DNA from: Sinorhizobium arboris LMG 14919
Lineage (GTDB): Bacteria; Pseudomonadota; Alphaproteobacteria; Rhizobiales; Rhizobiaceae
Direction: 5' to 3'
DNA: 64,000 nt
Assembly: GCF_000427465.1 (NCBI RefSeq)
Contig: NZ_ATYB01000014.1
Span: forward strand, 2,007,570 to 2,071,569
A program made the translations under genes and the position numbers. Under the pieces are notes generated by a model. That model was not told the DNA's origin. It worked only from the letters and a program-made list of their open reading frames with translations, and made no database searches. The stretch's first letter is position 1; the number at the start of each line of letters is the position of its first letter. Shown here piece by piece: positions 1-4,646 of this stretch.

Positions 1-287
1 TCCATGAGCGCGTCCTGCAGCGGCGTGACCGCATTGGTCGCTCCGGGGCCGGATGTCACCAGCATGACGCCGACCTTGCCGGTGGAGCGGGCATAGCCCT
101 CGGCCATGTGCCCGGCACCCTGCTCATGACGGACGAGGACGTGCTGAATCTCCTCCTGCTGGAAGATCTCATCATAGATCGGGAGCACGGCGCCGCCGGG
201 ATAGCCGAAGATGTGTTCGACGCCGTTGTCTTTCAAAGCCTGGAGAACGATCTCCGCGCCCGTCATCTGGTTCTCAGTTCCGCTCAT
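1..287 (-). CDS. ilvI: Acetolactate synthase large (catalytic) subunit, 5' part only
   Basis: The minus strand encodes the N-terminal 95 residues of a thiamine-diphosphate acetolactate synthase; the rest lies before the window. The enzyme condenses pyruvate with pyruvate or 2-oxobutyrate, the first common step of Val, Leu and Ile synthesis. The protein begins [18 protein letters not shown] and contains the typical [16 protein letters not shown] stretch with the ThDP-activating glutamate in [15 protein letters not shown]. The ATG at 287-285 is preceded by a purine-rich stretch. Upstream lies a leader peptide rich in Val/Ile/Leu and a terminator, which strongly supports an ilv gene under attenuation. 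The symbol ilvI (rather than ilvB) follows rhizobial naming and is inferred. Confidence 0.93.
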
Positions 288-341
288 TTGCCTGCTTCCG
301 TCCCTCGTTCAGGTTTGCGTGAATAACGTGTTTGAAGGCAT

Positions 342-365
342 AAAAAAAGGCCCCGTCAGGAGCCT
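342..365 (-). terminator. Attenuator terminator of the ilvI leader
   Basis: On the minus strand AGGCTCC and GGGGCCT form a 7-bp stem (one G-T pair) with loop TGAC, followed directly by a run of T (plus-strand A run at 342-348). It sits between the leader peptide and ilvI, where the terminator of a transcription attenuator should be. Confidence 0.85.
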
Positions 366-371
366 CGTTCA

Positions 372-419
372 GCGCATGGGTGGCTACCGCCGGATGGTTA
401 CACCACCCTGCCCATGCGC
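372..419 (-). promoter_or_regulatory. Pause/anti-antiterminator hairpin of the ilvI attenuator
   Basis: Plus-strand arms GCGCATGGG (372-380) and CCCATGCGC (411-419) are perfectly complementary over 9 bp. One arm lies inside the end of the leader peptide gene and the loop contains its stop codon, as in classical 1:2 leader hairpins. The AGCC just beyond it can instead pair with GGCT of the terminator stem, giving a possible antiterminator. Confidence 0.7.
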
Positions 420-454
420 CGTCCCACCACAAGAATAACCGCGAATTTTTTCAT
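398..454 (-). CDS. ilv operon leader peptide (18 aa)
   Basis: An 18-codon ORF encodes MKKFAVILVVGRRMGRVV. Eight of its 18 residues are Val, Ile or Leu, in two clusters (VILVV and terminal VV). It lies 111 bp upstream of ilvI and is followed by mutually exclusive hairpins and a T-run terminator. Shortage of charged branched-chain tRNAs would stall a ribosome in the VILVV or VV codons and favour readthrough. No Shine-Dalgarno sequence precedes the ATG. A sigma70-like promoter ends only 9 nt before it, so the mRNA may be leaderless, as is known for the S. meliloti trp leader. Function is inferred from sequence architecture. Confidence 0.85.
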   Translation of the reverse strand: MKKFAVILVVGRRMGRVV

Positions 455-463
455 GGGGCGATT

Positions 464-492
464 TGTTAAACGGAAAATCTCCACCCGTCAAC
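464..492 (-). promoter_or_regulatory. Candidate sigma70 promoter of the ilv leader
   Basis: On the minus strand GTTGAC (492-487) and TTAACA (469-464) are separated by 17 nt. They resemble the rhizobial housekeeping pattern CTTGAC-N17-CTATAT. The predicted start of transcription falls within a few bases of the leader ATG at 454. Confidence 0.55.
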
Positions 493-646
493 GCCTTTTG
501 GCGCGCTCTGACCGGCACAGACGTCACGGCTCGTGAGCAACCAGTTATTAAACTGCAGCCGCTATCGTGGGACGCCGCAAGGGAACAGGCGCCGGCTTTC
601 GGCGCGTATCCTGCGGCTGATTTGGCGTTTTCGCCCGAGGTGCTGC

Positions 647-2683
647 GTGCTCGAAAGTGGAAATCAAACGGCGCCTCGCGCCGGCGAGACGGATCGACGC
701 GATAGCTTGAAGCCCGGCAATCGTTTTCTCGGGCGGGTCGTCGGCTGCAACGGCTCGCGCGCCACCATCGCAGCGGTTGCCGAAAATGGCGAGACTTCGC
801 TCACCGAGCTCTGGTCGGTCGGCAAACTGGTTTCGATTTCTGTCGGCGCCAATCGTGTCGTCGCCCTCGTCTATTCGATGCAGACCGTATCCGAGGGTTG
901 GGGCGAAGAGGCCAACAATACGTTCCGCATCGAAGTGGAATTGATGGGAGAGGTTCACGTCGGTCCGGATGGGCGGGAAGAATTCTCCGCCGGCATCAGC
1001 CGCTATCCCTATCTCGGAGCGATCGCTCACCGCATCCGCGTAAGCGATCTCGCCCGCATCTACGATTCCGGTCAAGTGGACAGCTGCGTCATCGGAAAGT
1101 TGACGCAGGACGAAAGTCTCGACGCGACCATCCATGTGCCCTCTATGCTTGCCAAACATTTTGCGATCGTCGGCACCACCGGCGTCGGCAAGTCGACGGC
1201 CGTGACACTGCTCCTGAACAAGGCGATCGCCGCCGATCCGAAGCTGCGCGTGCTGATCCTCGATCCGCACAACGAGTTCGCCGCCGCCTTTCCGGACCAG
1301 GCGGTGGTCATCGACACGGACACGCTCGACCTCCCTTTCTGGTTTTTCCGCCTCGAGGAGTTGGCCGAGGTCGTCTTCCGCGGGCGCCCGCCGGTGCCGG
1401 AAGAGCTCGACATTCTGCGCGACGTCATCGCGGATGCGAAAAGGGCATTCAAGGGTGGCGAATCCGGCCTGATGAGGCGGCAGACGGAGAGGAGTTCCAT
1501 CACCGCAGATACCCCCGTACCCTATCGGATCGCCGATCTCCTGGCGATGATCGACGAGCGCATCGGTCGGCTGGAGGGGCGTAACGACAAGCCGCACCTG
1601 CGCTCCCTGAAGGTCAGGATCGTCTCGGCCGTCAACGATCCGCGCTACCATTTCATGTTCTCGCAGAACACGATCACGGACACGATCGAAGACACGATTG
1701 CGAAGATCTTCCGCATTCCGGGCGATGACAAGCCGATCGCCACCTTCGAGCTTGCCGGCATCCCCTCGGAAGTCGTCAATTCCCTCGCATCCGTGCTCTG
1801 CCGCATGGCCTTCGAGATCGGCCTCTGGGGCAATGGCGCCATCCATATGCTGGTCGTCTGCGAAGAGGCCCACCGCTACGTACCGGCCGATCCCTCTCTC
1901 GGCTTTGTGCCCACACGCCAGGCCATTGCTCGAATCGCCAAGGAAGGCCGTAAATACGGGGTGTCGCTCGGCATCATCACCCAGAGGCCGGGCGAACTCG
2001 ATCCGACGATCCTGTCGCAATGCTCGACTGTCTTCGCCATGCGGCTCGCCAATGACCGCGACCAGGAAATCATCCGATCGGCGATCTCCAATTCGTCGAT
2101 CTCCACCACCAGCTTCATTTCCTCGATCGGCAACGGCGAGGCAATCGCCTTCGGCGAGGCGGTCGCAGTACCCATGCGCATGCGCTTTGCTCGAGTCGAA
2201 GATGCGCGGTTGCCCCGCGCCCACGGCATCACCGACAAGGTGGACGACGACGCGCCACCCGCCGCCGACCTCCGTTCCATCATCGGCCGCATGCGTGCCG
2301 TGAACGGTCCCGACATAACGAGTTTCCAACAGAGCTACCTGGCGGCCCAGACGAAGCAGTCGCCCGTGCTCGAGGACGGCGACTGGAGTGGGACAGGCGC
2401 CGAGACCGGGGCCACCTCCCCCCTTTCGCGACAATATCCAGCATTCGAGCCCTATAGCCCCGACATGCTTCCGCGTTCTTCCGAACCGGCCAACCCGGAG
2501 ATCGAACGCTTCAACCGAATCCGCGAGCAGATCCTTTCCGCAGAGTCGGAAAGCGGATTGCGTGGGGCCGCCAAGGCGCCGGGCCAAGCGGACCGGGGCT
2601 TCGGCACGCCGGCGCCGCGCCGCGAAGGGTCGCTTCGCGAAAGCCTGCTCAAGCGACCGCTTGGCAGCCTTATCCGCAAATAA
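647..2683 (+). CDS. HerA/DUF87-type ATP-binding protein
   Basis: A 678-residue P-loop ATPase of the HerA/FtsK superfamily (DUF87). Walker A GTTGVGKST is near residue 176; Walker B with catalytic acidic residues (VVCEEAH) is near residue 405; an arginine/sensor region follows (YGVSLGIITQRPGELDPTILSQC). The N-terminal ~100 residues form a small beta-rich HAS-like domain. Relatives are hexameric DNA translocases or uncharacterised ATPases; no NurA nuclease partner is nearby, so a role in end resection cannot be claimed. The reading frame is open back to 533, but GTG at 647 has a GAGG ribosome-binding site 6 nt upstream and starts just before the conserved part, so I prefer it. The C-terminal ~130 residues look disordered. 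Confidence 0.85.
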   Translation: MLESGNQTAPRAGETDRRDSLKPGNRFLGRVVGCNGSRATIAAVAENGETSLTELWSVGKLVSISVGANRVVALVYSMQTVSEGWGEEANNTFRIEVELMGEVHVGPDGREEFSAGISRYPYLGAIAHRIRVSDLARIYDSGQVDSCVIGKLTQDESLDATIHVPSMLAKHFAIVGTTGVGKSTAVTLLLNKAIAADPKLRVLILDPHNEFAAAFPDQAVVIDTDTLDLPFWFFRLEELAEVVFRGRPPVPEELDILRDVIADAKRAFKGGESGLMRRQTERSSITADTPVPYRIADLLAMIDERIGRLEGRNDKPHLRSLKVRIVSAVNDPRYHFMFSQNTITDTIEDTIAKIFRIPGDDKPIATFELAGIPSEVVNSLASVLCRMAFEIGLWGNGAIHMLVVCEEAHRYVPADPSLGFVPTRQAIARIAKEGRKYGVSLGIITQRPGELDPTILSQCSTVFAMRLANDRDQEIIRSAISNSSISTTSFISSIGNGEAIAFGEAVAVPMRMRFARVEDARLPRAHGITDKVDDDAPPAADLRSIIGRMRAVNGPDITSFQQSYLAAQTKQSPVLEDGDWSGTGAETGATSPLSRQYPAFEPYSPDMLPRSSEPANPEIERFNRIREQILSAESESGLRGAAKAPGQADRGFGTPAPRREGSLRESLLKRPLGSLIRK

Positions 2684-2829
2684 GCCGGCCCGAACAAATA
2701 CAGCATTGCGGCAACCAAGCTGCGGGAACGGACGGCATCGCCTGGCGGGTGAGCCGGCCCTGACTTGCAGATTTTGGATCCGGGGGCTCCTCTCGAGCGT
2801 TGATGTGACGTCAGGACGAGGAGACGACC

Positions 2830-3180
2830 ATGGATGACGATGACGCATGGAAAAACGAGCGGCGGCTCTGGCTCGAGGGCTCCGACCCCTATCGCGAATT
2901 GCTGGACGAAGACTGCATCATGGCATTCTCCGCGCCGGTCGGTGTCCTGCGCGGACGATCGGTCATAATTCGAAGTCTCCAGGGAATCCCGCGGTGGGAG
3001 CATCTCACGATGACCGGGAAAGTCATGAGCCGGATCGGCGAGAACTTTATCGTGCTCGGGTATCTTGCGGAGGCGCGACGCGCGCAAGGCCGGCCCTACG
3101 CGGCCTATTGCACGTCGACGTATCACGGCGTCGGAGCAGACTGGAAACTCATTCAACACCAGCACACGCCGGTCGACTGA
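2830..3180 (+). CDS. NTF2-like/SnoaL-like protein (DUF4440 type)
   Basis: A 116-residue soluble protein. The pattern (WLEGSDPYRELLDEDCIMAFSAPVGVLRGR, then a strand-rich C-terminal half) fits a small cone-shaped NTF2-like fold used by SnoaL, ketosteroid isomerase and DUF4440 proteins. No catalytic residues are certain, so the function is unknown. ATG 2830 follows a clear GAGGAG site. It is followed 55 bp later by another small protein with a similar predicted fold, so the two may be co-transcribed. I see no signal peptide. Confidence 0.75.
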   Translation: MDDDDAWKNERRLWLEGSDPYRELLDEDCIMAFSAPVGVLRGRSVIIRSLQGIPRWEHLTMTGKVMSRIGENFIVLGYLAEARRAQGRPYAAYCTSTYHGVGADWKLIQHQHTPVD

Positions 3181-3235
3181 CCTGCGGGACCGCAAGCCTC
3201 CGCCGGTTGCGCGGATCAAATTTGGGAAGAAAATC

Positions 3236-3667
3236 ATGGAAGACATTTTGCGGCGCTTCTTCGAGCGCTACGAGAGCATGGCCAATCAGGTGCTGTCAGG
3301 ATCGTTGCCGGTCAGCCATACGACCTTCGCCTTCGCCTCCGACTTTATTGCCGCCTCGCCGGCCGGAGTCATGACGGGCAAGAACGATGAAACCCTGGCT
3401 GCATCAATGGAAAAGGGCTACGCCCGCTACCGCGCGATCGGAACCAGGGAACTGAAGATCCGCGAAACCACTGTGACGCCGATCGACGCGCTGCATTTCC
3501 TTGTACGCGTCGATTGGCGTTCCGTCTTCGACGCCGAGGAGCAGCCGGACGTGACGATCGATTTCGAAGTCCATTACCTCGTTCAACTGCGTGACGGCGA
3601 GCCGAAGATTTTCGGCTGGGTCAGCGGCGACGAGGAAGCCGTTTTGAAGGAGCACGGGATCGGCTGA
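3236..3667 (+). CDS. Conserved hypothetical protein, NTF2-like fold likely
   Basis: A 143-residue protein (MEDILRRFFERYESMANQVL...). A helical N-terminus is followed by alternating strands, including VRVDWRSVFDAEEQPDVTIDF and HYLVQLRDGEPKIFGWVSGDEE, the arrangement of NTF2-like proteins. The frame is open further upstream to 3065, overlapping the preceding gene. ATG 3236 has GGGAAG about 7 nt upstream and begins the conserved-looking part. Function unknown; it sits between the SnoaL-like gene and the 3' end of miaA. Confidence 0.75.
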   Translation: MEDILRRFFERYESMANQVLSGSLPVSHTTFAFASDFIAASPAGVMTGKNDETLAASMEKGYARYRAIGTRELKIRETTVTPIDALHFLVRVDWRSVFDAEEQPDVTIDFEVHYLVQLRDGEPKIFGWVSGDEEAVLKEHGIG

Positions 3668-3734
3668 ATTGCCGGGTCGCCGTGCTCCTCAGCGATCGGA
3701 CGAGAAGCCCCGCCGTCCGAAACCGAGAAGCGAC

Positions 3735-4646
3735 CTAGTCCAGTGCGTCCGGGCCTTCGATACGCTGCCATGTTTCGTCAAGCTGGTTGCGGAACCAGGT
3801 CATCTGGCGCTTGGCATATTGGCGCGTGGCCGCGGCCCCGGCCTCGATCACCTTCGTTTCCGTCATCTCGCCCCTCAGCATCGCGGCGATCTGCTGCACG
3901 CCGATCGCCTTCATCACCGGCATCTCCGGCGGGAGGCGTAGCGCGAGAAGCGCCCGCACCTCCTCGACGGCACCTTTCGCAAGCATCGTCTCGAAACGTC
4001 GGTCGATGCGGCCATGGAGTACCGGCCGCTCCGGCAGGACGACGATCTTCAGCGCTCGATCCGGATCGATGACCACCGGCCCGCGGCTCTGCCGGTAAGA
4101 ACCGATGGGCTTGCCGGACGCCTCTATTACCTCCAGCGCGCGCACGATGCGCTGCCCGTCGCCGGGCCGTAAGCGCGCCGCCGTCTCCGGATCGCGTCCG
4201 GAGAGTTCGCGGTGGAGCGCCTCAGCGCCTTCCTCCGTCAGGCGCGTGCGCAGTCGCTGGCGGATCGCGGGCGGAATCTCCGGCATGTCCGAAAGGCCTC
4301 CCGTCAGCGCCTTGAAATAAAGGCCCGTGCCGCCGACGAAGACCGGAAGGCGCCCCTCTTTCCTTAATCGTGCCACGAGCGCTTCCGCCTCCCGGAGCCA
4401 TGCGCCGGTCGAATAGGCACGGTCCGGCGGGACATGGCCATACAGGAAATGCTCGACGCCACCCATCTCGCTTTCATCCGGACGCGCGGTCAGGATTTTC
4501 AGCGTGCCGTAAACCTGCATGCTGTCGGCATTGATCACGACGCCGCCGTGTCTTTGCGCAAGCTTCACGGCGAGCGCGGACTTGCCGCTGGCGGTCGGCC
4601 CGGTTATCAGGATCGCGTCGATGTCTCTCGCAAGGTTTTGCATCAT
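3735..4646 (-). CDS. miaA: tRNA dimethylallyltransferase
   Basis: MiaA transfers a dimethylallyl group to N6 of A37 in tRNAs reading UNN codons. The ~303-residue protein has the N-terminal P-loop GPTASGKSA (residues 16-24), the substrate motif NADSMQVYGTLKILTARP, and VGGTGLYFKALTGG, all typical. The C-terminal RQYAKRQMTWFRNQ region binds tRNA. Start candidates are GTG 4661, ATG 4646 and ATG 4643; I use 4646. All overlap or abut the divergent serB start at 4645, so the two genes share their 5' ends with no intergenic space. Confidence 0.95.
   Translation of the reverse strand: MMQNLARDIDAILITGPTASGKSALAVKLAQRHGGVVINADSMQVYGTLKILTARPDESEMGGVEHFLYGHVPPDRAYSTGAWLREAEALVARLRKEGRLPVFVGGTGLYFKALTGGLSDMPEIPPAIRQRLRTRLTEEGAEALHRELSGRDPETAARLRPGDGQRIVRALEVIEASGKPIGSYRQSRGPVVIDPDRALKIVVLPERPVLHGRIDRRFETMLAKGAVEEVRALLALRLPPEMPVMKAIGVQQIAAMLRGEMTETKVIEAGAAATRQYAKRQMTWFRNQLDETWQRIEGPDALD

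Follow-up and report, generated by a model that had tools for sequence, protein, structure and literature searches.

The minus-strand region upstream of ilvI, at one end of a 64,000-nucleotide stretch of Sinorhizobium arboris LMG 14919 DNA (the window), raises the question of whether the leader of this gene works as textbook ribosome-mediated attenuators do, by switching between mutually exclusive hairpins. The element (491–342, minus strand, as are all features described here unless stated) lies ahead of the ilvI ATG at 287; the 5′ part of ilvI (3..287), which encodes an acetolactate synthase large subunit with a Pfam TPP_enzyme_N match, is cut by the window end. A −35 box TTGACG (486..491) is followed after a 17-nt spacer by a −10 box TAACAA (463..468) 8 nt from the leader ATG, and this promoter geometry places the predicted transcription start at 454, the A of the leader AUG. 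The leader ORF (398..454) has 18 codons, MKKFAVILVVGRRMGRVV plus a stop codon, and contains seven Ile/Leu/Val residues rather than the eight first counted. Codons 6–10 (425..439; GTT ATT CTT GTG GTG, Val Ile Leu Val Val) are the putative control codons and stop 3 nt short of the hairpin P1 (370..421), whose 5′ arm comes next. The original prediction correctly placed a hairpin across the end of the ORF, but in the predicted fold its stem pairs 421–411 with 380–370 over 11 bp, not 9, and encloses two smaller hairpins: P2 (408–402/398–392), at which the leader stop codon sits, and P3 (391–389/384–382). The intrinsic terminator that follows (342..366; stem 366–359 with 354–347) has a hairpin of about −11 to −12.4 kcal/mol, the median across all locus rows being −11.7 kcal/mol, and the T-run noted earlier is present as a U7 run (348–342). 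The ilvI counterpart in S. meliloti Ak57 is annotated as acetolactate synthase 3 large subunit and is preceded by a near-identical leader, MKNFAVILVVGRRMGRMV. On the opposite strand, a divergent neighbor (533–2683, plus strand) is a long ORF in which a P-loop was recognized by eye, and its S. meliloti counterpart is annotated as DUF87 domain-containing.

The element as such is an already known attenuator, correctly spotted. It matches Rfam family RF02502 (‘Atu_C8’) at 332..452 over the full model (1–122) with 117.2 bits and an E-value of 1.8e-26, which exceeds the 50-bit gathering score, and so belongs to the family. The match is the only one in this genome and starts at 452, 2 nt inside the leader AUG. 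Atu_C8 is reportedly an Agrobacterium sRNA, and its source is said to be Wilms 2012. Weak Rfam matches to g2, mir-598, and Glutamine-II in window positions 1–4000 fell under their gathering scores and were discarded. At E ≤ 0.001, a scan of 297 genomes from the order matches RF02502 in 161, and a scan of 151 genomes from the family to which the window belongs matches it in 146; taken together, the two scans match it in 302 out of 442 distinct genomes from this order. Among the entries of an S. meliloti element list, one is an ‘ilvIH cis regulatory’ region for which Vitreschak 2004 is cited (PMC2573895), and PMC1273637 refers to the ilvB leader peptide of an alphaproteobacterium; the ilvIH/ilvB attenuators predicted in Vitreschak 2004, as cited in these two papers, share the gene and the leader position with the present element. 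Because RF02502 exists and the S. meliloti ilvIH element is listed (PMC2573895), the ilvI attenuator is not new; what is added here is the leaderless geometry, the antiterminator test, and the efflux-pump copies. Within the accessible portions of the open-licence PMC literature, no statement was found of a rhizobial ilv leader being leaderless or lacking an antiterminator, or of an efflux pump bearing an ilv attenuator; in the main text as available, ‘ilv’ is absent from PMC3616915, PMC3738593, PMC10469942, and PMC4201532, and ‘ilvI’ from PMC2873474.

The comparisons were made on 119 order loci, including the window, taken from the search with 161 matching genomes after the weakest listed and the unlisted matches were left out, and on 75 additional rows from f1, giving 194 rows in which one locus is held twice (L146 = L172). 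Families are denoted by handles (f1, f6, and so on), f1 being the family of the window, which also holds Rhizobium. The 75 rows come from 86 loci chosen by their Ile/Leu/Val run, of which 11 failed the strict terminator pattern and lie outside the 194; these 11 are not independent support because the later search itself required TTGAC. The leader start in the order loci is the candidate nearest the start of the Rfam match (for L041 the start used in its sister loci was assigned by hand), and where several AUGs were possible in the added f1 rows the one preceded by TTGAC was preferred. Comparison of the leader ORF among relatives, suggested along with the original prediction, reveals that an Ile/Leu/Val run of at least three is kept in 118 of the 119 order loci, versus 7% of shuffles; the locus with a run of two is L087.

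The promoter-to-AUG geometry indirectly indicates that the ilv leader in the window is very probably leaderless. Throughout f1, TTGAC lies 35–38 nt upstream of the leader AUG (90 of 90 rows). A −10 box could be recognized in 87 of these rows and ends 6–8 nt before the AUG in every one; in the unbiased subset of rows with a single possible AUG, identical TTGAC spacing is found in 59 of 59. The median Shine-Dalgarno duplex is −0.2 kcal/mol in f1 versus −5.7 kcal/mol in eight other families pooled (f6, f11, f18, f27, f40, f41, f43, and f44; 62 rows), with values of −4.5 kcal/mol or lower in 45 of these 62 rows and in 7 of 90 f1 rows. In the window leader no Shine-Dalgarno site was found, in agreement with the earlier remark that no ribosome site is visible. 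Leaderless-like geometry recurs in f28 (7 of 7 loci), in f23 (8 of 9, the ninth being without a detected promoter), and in 1 of 9 f16 loci, and the gap is 9–10 nt in 2 of 3 f22 loci. In f6, the pump copies described below account for the two loci in which the gap is 10, and because their ATG is doubled, counting from the first ATG gives a gap of 7. Detected gaps are 24–48 nt in f11, f18 (detected in only 3 of 10 loci), f27, f40, f43, f44, and the remaining f6 and f16 loci, and 30–89 nt in f41 (detected in 5 of 8), values that are approximate in these leadered families because the promoter scan is loose. The leadered-looking versions in other families of the order speak for a longer leader made from an upstream promoter, the AUG-proximal promoter then being a chance match, but the near-invariant spacing in f1 and the window leader devoid of a Shine-Dalgarno site render that explanation very improbable. 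A leaderless start receives additional support from trpL of the same genome, whose −10 box (TAACAC, versus TAACAA for ilv) is likewise 8 nt from the AUG; S. meliloti trpL RNA is reported to start with AUG in the sections available of PMC7298713 and PMC10117765, so that the two leaders would share a leaderless structure. Leaderless starts are reported to be uncommon in S. meliloti (171 versus 4,430 mRNA starts; PMC3616915, available part). The split of one element into leaderless and leadered forms constitutes a natural experiment on leaderless translation.

Of the complete attenuator that had been described, the leader ORF, control codons, P1, and terminator stand, but the antiterminator half is unsupported: under the energy models applied here, the assumed antiterminator does not hold up. 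The alternative pairing proposed for it, AGCC (385–382) with GGCT (364–361), can be drawn as 6 bp with one bulge, but at −8.4 kcal/mol versus −7.9 kcal/mol in shuffles it is no better than chance (p = 0.31). Of the 83 f1 rows with a preserved GGCTCC arm, 37 contain AGCC, and the g3 loci are an example without it. When the window RNA was folded with the A site at each of codons 5–19, the terminator was always kept in the best structure. Pairing of the terminator 5′ arm with upstream sequence gave a mean z of +0.26 over the 119 loci (8 with p ≤ 0.05, dinucleotide shuffles) and +0.54 over the 194 rows (7 with z ≤ −2), and in the ensemble a ribosome stalled at the first control codon leaves this arm paired at 0.30 (0.60 in shuffles), whereas one stalled at the last leaves it paired at 0.47 (0.59 in shuffles). 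Tests restricted to the initial 4 nt of the 5′ arm, or directed at the terminator 3′ arm and the 5′ part of the leader, were also negative on average in the ilv rows. Mutual information over 118 distinct sequences revealed no antiterminator helix, AGCC/GGCT-type or other, that stands out among the top covarying pairs, and the conserved terminator does not stand out either.

The same procedures recovered antiterminator pairing in control leaders. For trpL, nine genomes (ten pattern hits less L220, dropped for lack of an in-frame ATG) gave a mean z of −2.26 at the better of two stalls, with the arm paired at 0.69 versus 0.53, and trpL of the window's own genome gave −3.5 and −2.6 at the two stalls, a strong antiterminator that distinguishes it from the ilv leader. 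In six E. coli leaders the arm was paired at 0.71 versus 0.48 and each z was negative at at least one control-codon stall, although these controls are uneven (z is +1.4 for ilvL at codon 20, and in leuL and hisL the initial 4 nt of the arm fall under shuffles). On average, the 15 control leaders exceed the shuffled background and the 194 ilv rows lie at or below it, so that under these models a stall does not, on average, lead to sequestration of the terminator 5′ arm by an antiterminator. The exception is f27, where antiterminator-like pairing is found (3 of 7 loci with p ≤ 0.05; arm paired at 0.74 versus 0.60).

The C. glutamicum ilvBNC attenuator, reportedly the subject of Morbach 2000, gives reason for caution. 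As given in the available part of PMC11857589, it has a branched-chain leader peptide without a ribosome binding site, is leaderless with CUU and GUA control codons, and switches on a GCC trinucleotide shared by antiterminator and terminator, whereas in the window P1 forms a hairpin of its own, apart from the terminator. Kinetics are not captured by energy models, and an antiterminator as short as this GCC overlap could escape the tests above. A classical three-state attenuator would accordingly be one in which a stall frees the 3′ part of P1/P3 and AGCC (+GG) captures the terminator GGCT(CC) before the 3′ arm is made; the available 6-bp pairing, its possible kinetic formation, and the C. glutamicum precedent speak for it. 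Given pairing at or below the level of shuffles both in the window and across the rows, an AGCC missing from many loci, and the silence of the covariation analysis, we judge the classical switch rather unlikely. The Caulobacter ilv leader, described in a section of PMC4117421 as an instance of ilv operon attenuation in an alphaproteobacterium, is likened to the present element by description.

Instead, we consider it reasonably probable that the element is an ilvI branched-chain attenuator whose RNA starts at the leader AUG and in which P1 and the terminator stand as two back-to-back hairpins, no antiterminator being detected. This picture follows from the failure to find any upstream sequence placed to capture the terminator 5′ arm. 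In the ilv rows the P1/P2 pairing has a z of −2.40 (the window alone −0.96), so the method does detect real helices there, and P1 and P2 between them contain the three highest-ranking covarying pairs and seven of the first ten (mutual information, 118 distinct sequences). Counted on 190 rows, the other four of the 194 having no qualifying P1, this hairpin starts 0–5 nt past the last control codon in 185, ends 0–9 nt ahead of the terminator in 190, and has the stop codon inside it in 187. According to the proposed mechanism, a sigma70-type promoter would direct, as the promoter geometry strongly implies, an RNA beginning at the A of the leader AUG, which would on that account be read as a leaderless mRNA, and the ribosome would translate the Val-Ile-Leu-Val-Val codons just ahead of P1. 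When charged Val, Ile, or Leu tRNA is scarce, it would stall on these codons and cover the base of P1; since a ribosome stalled there would touch the P1 base, P1 and not an antiterminator is proposed as the sensor. Transcripts stopped at the terminator would presumably correspond to the catalogued Atu_C8 RNA. How the stall would be relayed to ilvI is a guess that we keep apart from the structural proposal: P1 might act as an RNA polymerase pause hairpin that aids termination, and a stalled ribosome that blocks P1 might allow faster passage of the polymerase and hence transcription of ilvI, starvation being linked to the gene through loss of the pausing hairpin. If the missing antiterminator is confirmed, the rule of mutually exclusive hairpins would not extend to an RNA family matched in 302 of 442 genomes.

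Another explanation is a frameshift, in which a ribosome stalled at a hungry codon slips to the +1 frame, reads across the terminator, and thereby blocks it. In 160 of 194 rows the +1 frame stays open across the terminator, where mononucleotide shuffling predicts 0.54, and in the window this open frame extends as far as the ilvI start as judged by eye. It is, however, open in 0 of 4 f40, 1 of 5 f44, and 1 of 4 f43 loci, and the excess may be explicable by shared ancestry together with the P1 and terminator sequence. Occlusion by frameshifting was rejected, and we regard it as very improbable.

A different possibility is that the product acts mainly in trans, as a small RNA or peptide, with its location before ilvI being secondary. 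RF02502 is typed ‘Gene; sRNA’ in Rfam 15, and rnTrpL and peTrpL derived from the S. meliloti trpL leader are reported to act in trans (PMC7298713, the part available). Despite this typing, the 18 copies that were inspected are ORF-bearing leaders, all located before an acetolactate synthase gene (14 copies, with that of L039 recognized by eye from the DNA) or an MFS pump gene (4 copies); moreover, the control codons fit the product of ilvI, and the C-terminal half of the leader peptide varies between families. A mainly trans-acting role therefore appears improbable, and the preferred reading remains that of a cis-acting attenuator. In two f11 genomes (L042, L043), two adjacent acetolactate synthase genes each have their own attenuator. 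Second copies before a second acetolactate synthase gene were recognized by eye at L032, L170, and L172.

Two Rhizobium and two f6 genomes have a second copy of this RNA located before an MFS pump gene and not ilvI; these are the four pump copies (L034, L036, L038, L040). The pump is Bcr/CflA-like by NCBIfam TIGR00710, with L038 above the cut-off and L034 below it. Among named genomes, searched with the Rhizobium pump as query in a scan that reaches close relatives only, RF02502 lies upstream of 32 of 34 pump loci (L230–L263; 20 of 20 and 12 of 14 in two batches), and all 32 belong to Rhizobium, Mesorhizobium, or Phyllobacterium. The two pump relatives without RF02502 are those of Variovorax sp. 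OK212 (60% identical) and Rhizobium sp. Root1203 (50%). R. etli 8C-3 and Rhizobium sp. 007 also have copies, located before an ORF that resembles the pump by eye. In the f6 genomes the pump copies score 85 and 83 bits with RF02502 versus 47 and 58 for the native copies, and because the pump copy combines these higher scores with an f1-like promoter, sequence comparison suggests that it was transferred into f6; a scan of viral contigs for the f6 pump found no relative.

Taken across the order, these observations might be combined into a broader proposal, which we advance only tentatively and consider unlikely to hold in full: in much of the order, branched-chain attenuation would operate by two back-to-back hairpins without an antiterminator, the stalled ribosome acting only by blocking the hairpin adjacent to RNA polymerase, and the leaderless module would have been copied onto a Bcr/CflA-like pump that answers to the charging of branched-chain tRNA. 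If this were true, the pump would respond to inhibitors of aminoacyl-tRNA synthetases or of acetolactate synthase. The presence of the element before efflux pumps suggests a second use for amino acid attenuators, namely to sense compounds that interfere with amino acid metabolism.

The genome of the window itself carries a homologue of the pump, ∼62% identical, at G000:C3:678981-680094 (L269–L271), which lies in three pieces and two frames and is apparently broken; beside it, neither an RF02502 match nor an attenuator motif was detected. In Rhizobium sp. Kim5, a plasmid copy (L265) precedes an annotated MFS transporter that is 47% identical to the Rhizobium pump, and at this locus (plasmid pRetKim5c, 153432–159588) the attenuator and the pump gene directly follow genes for a cytochrome P450, a 2Fe-2S protein, and an FAD oxidoreductase.
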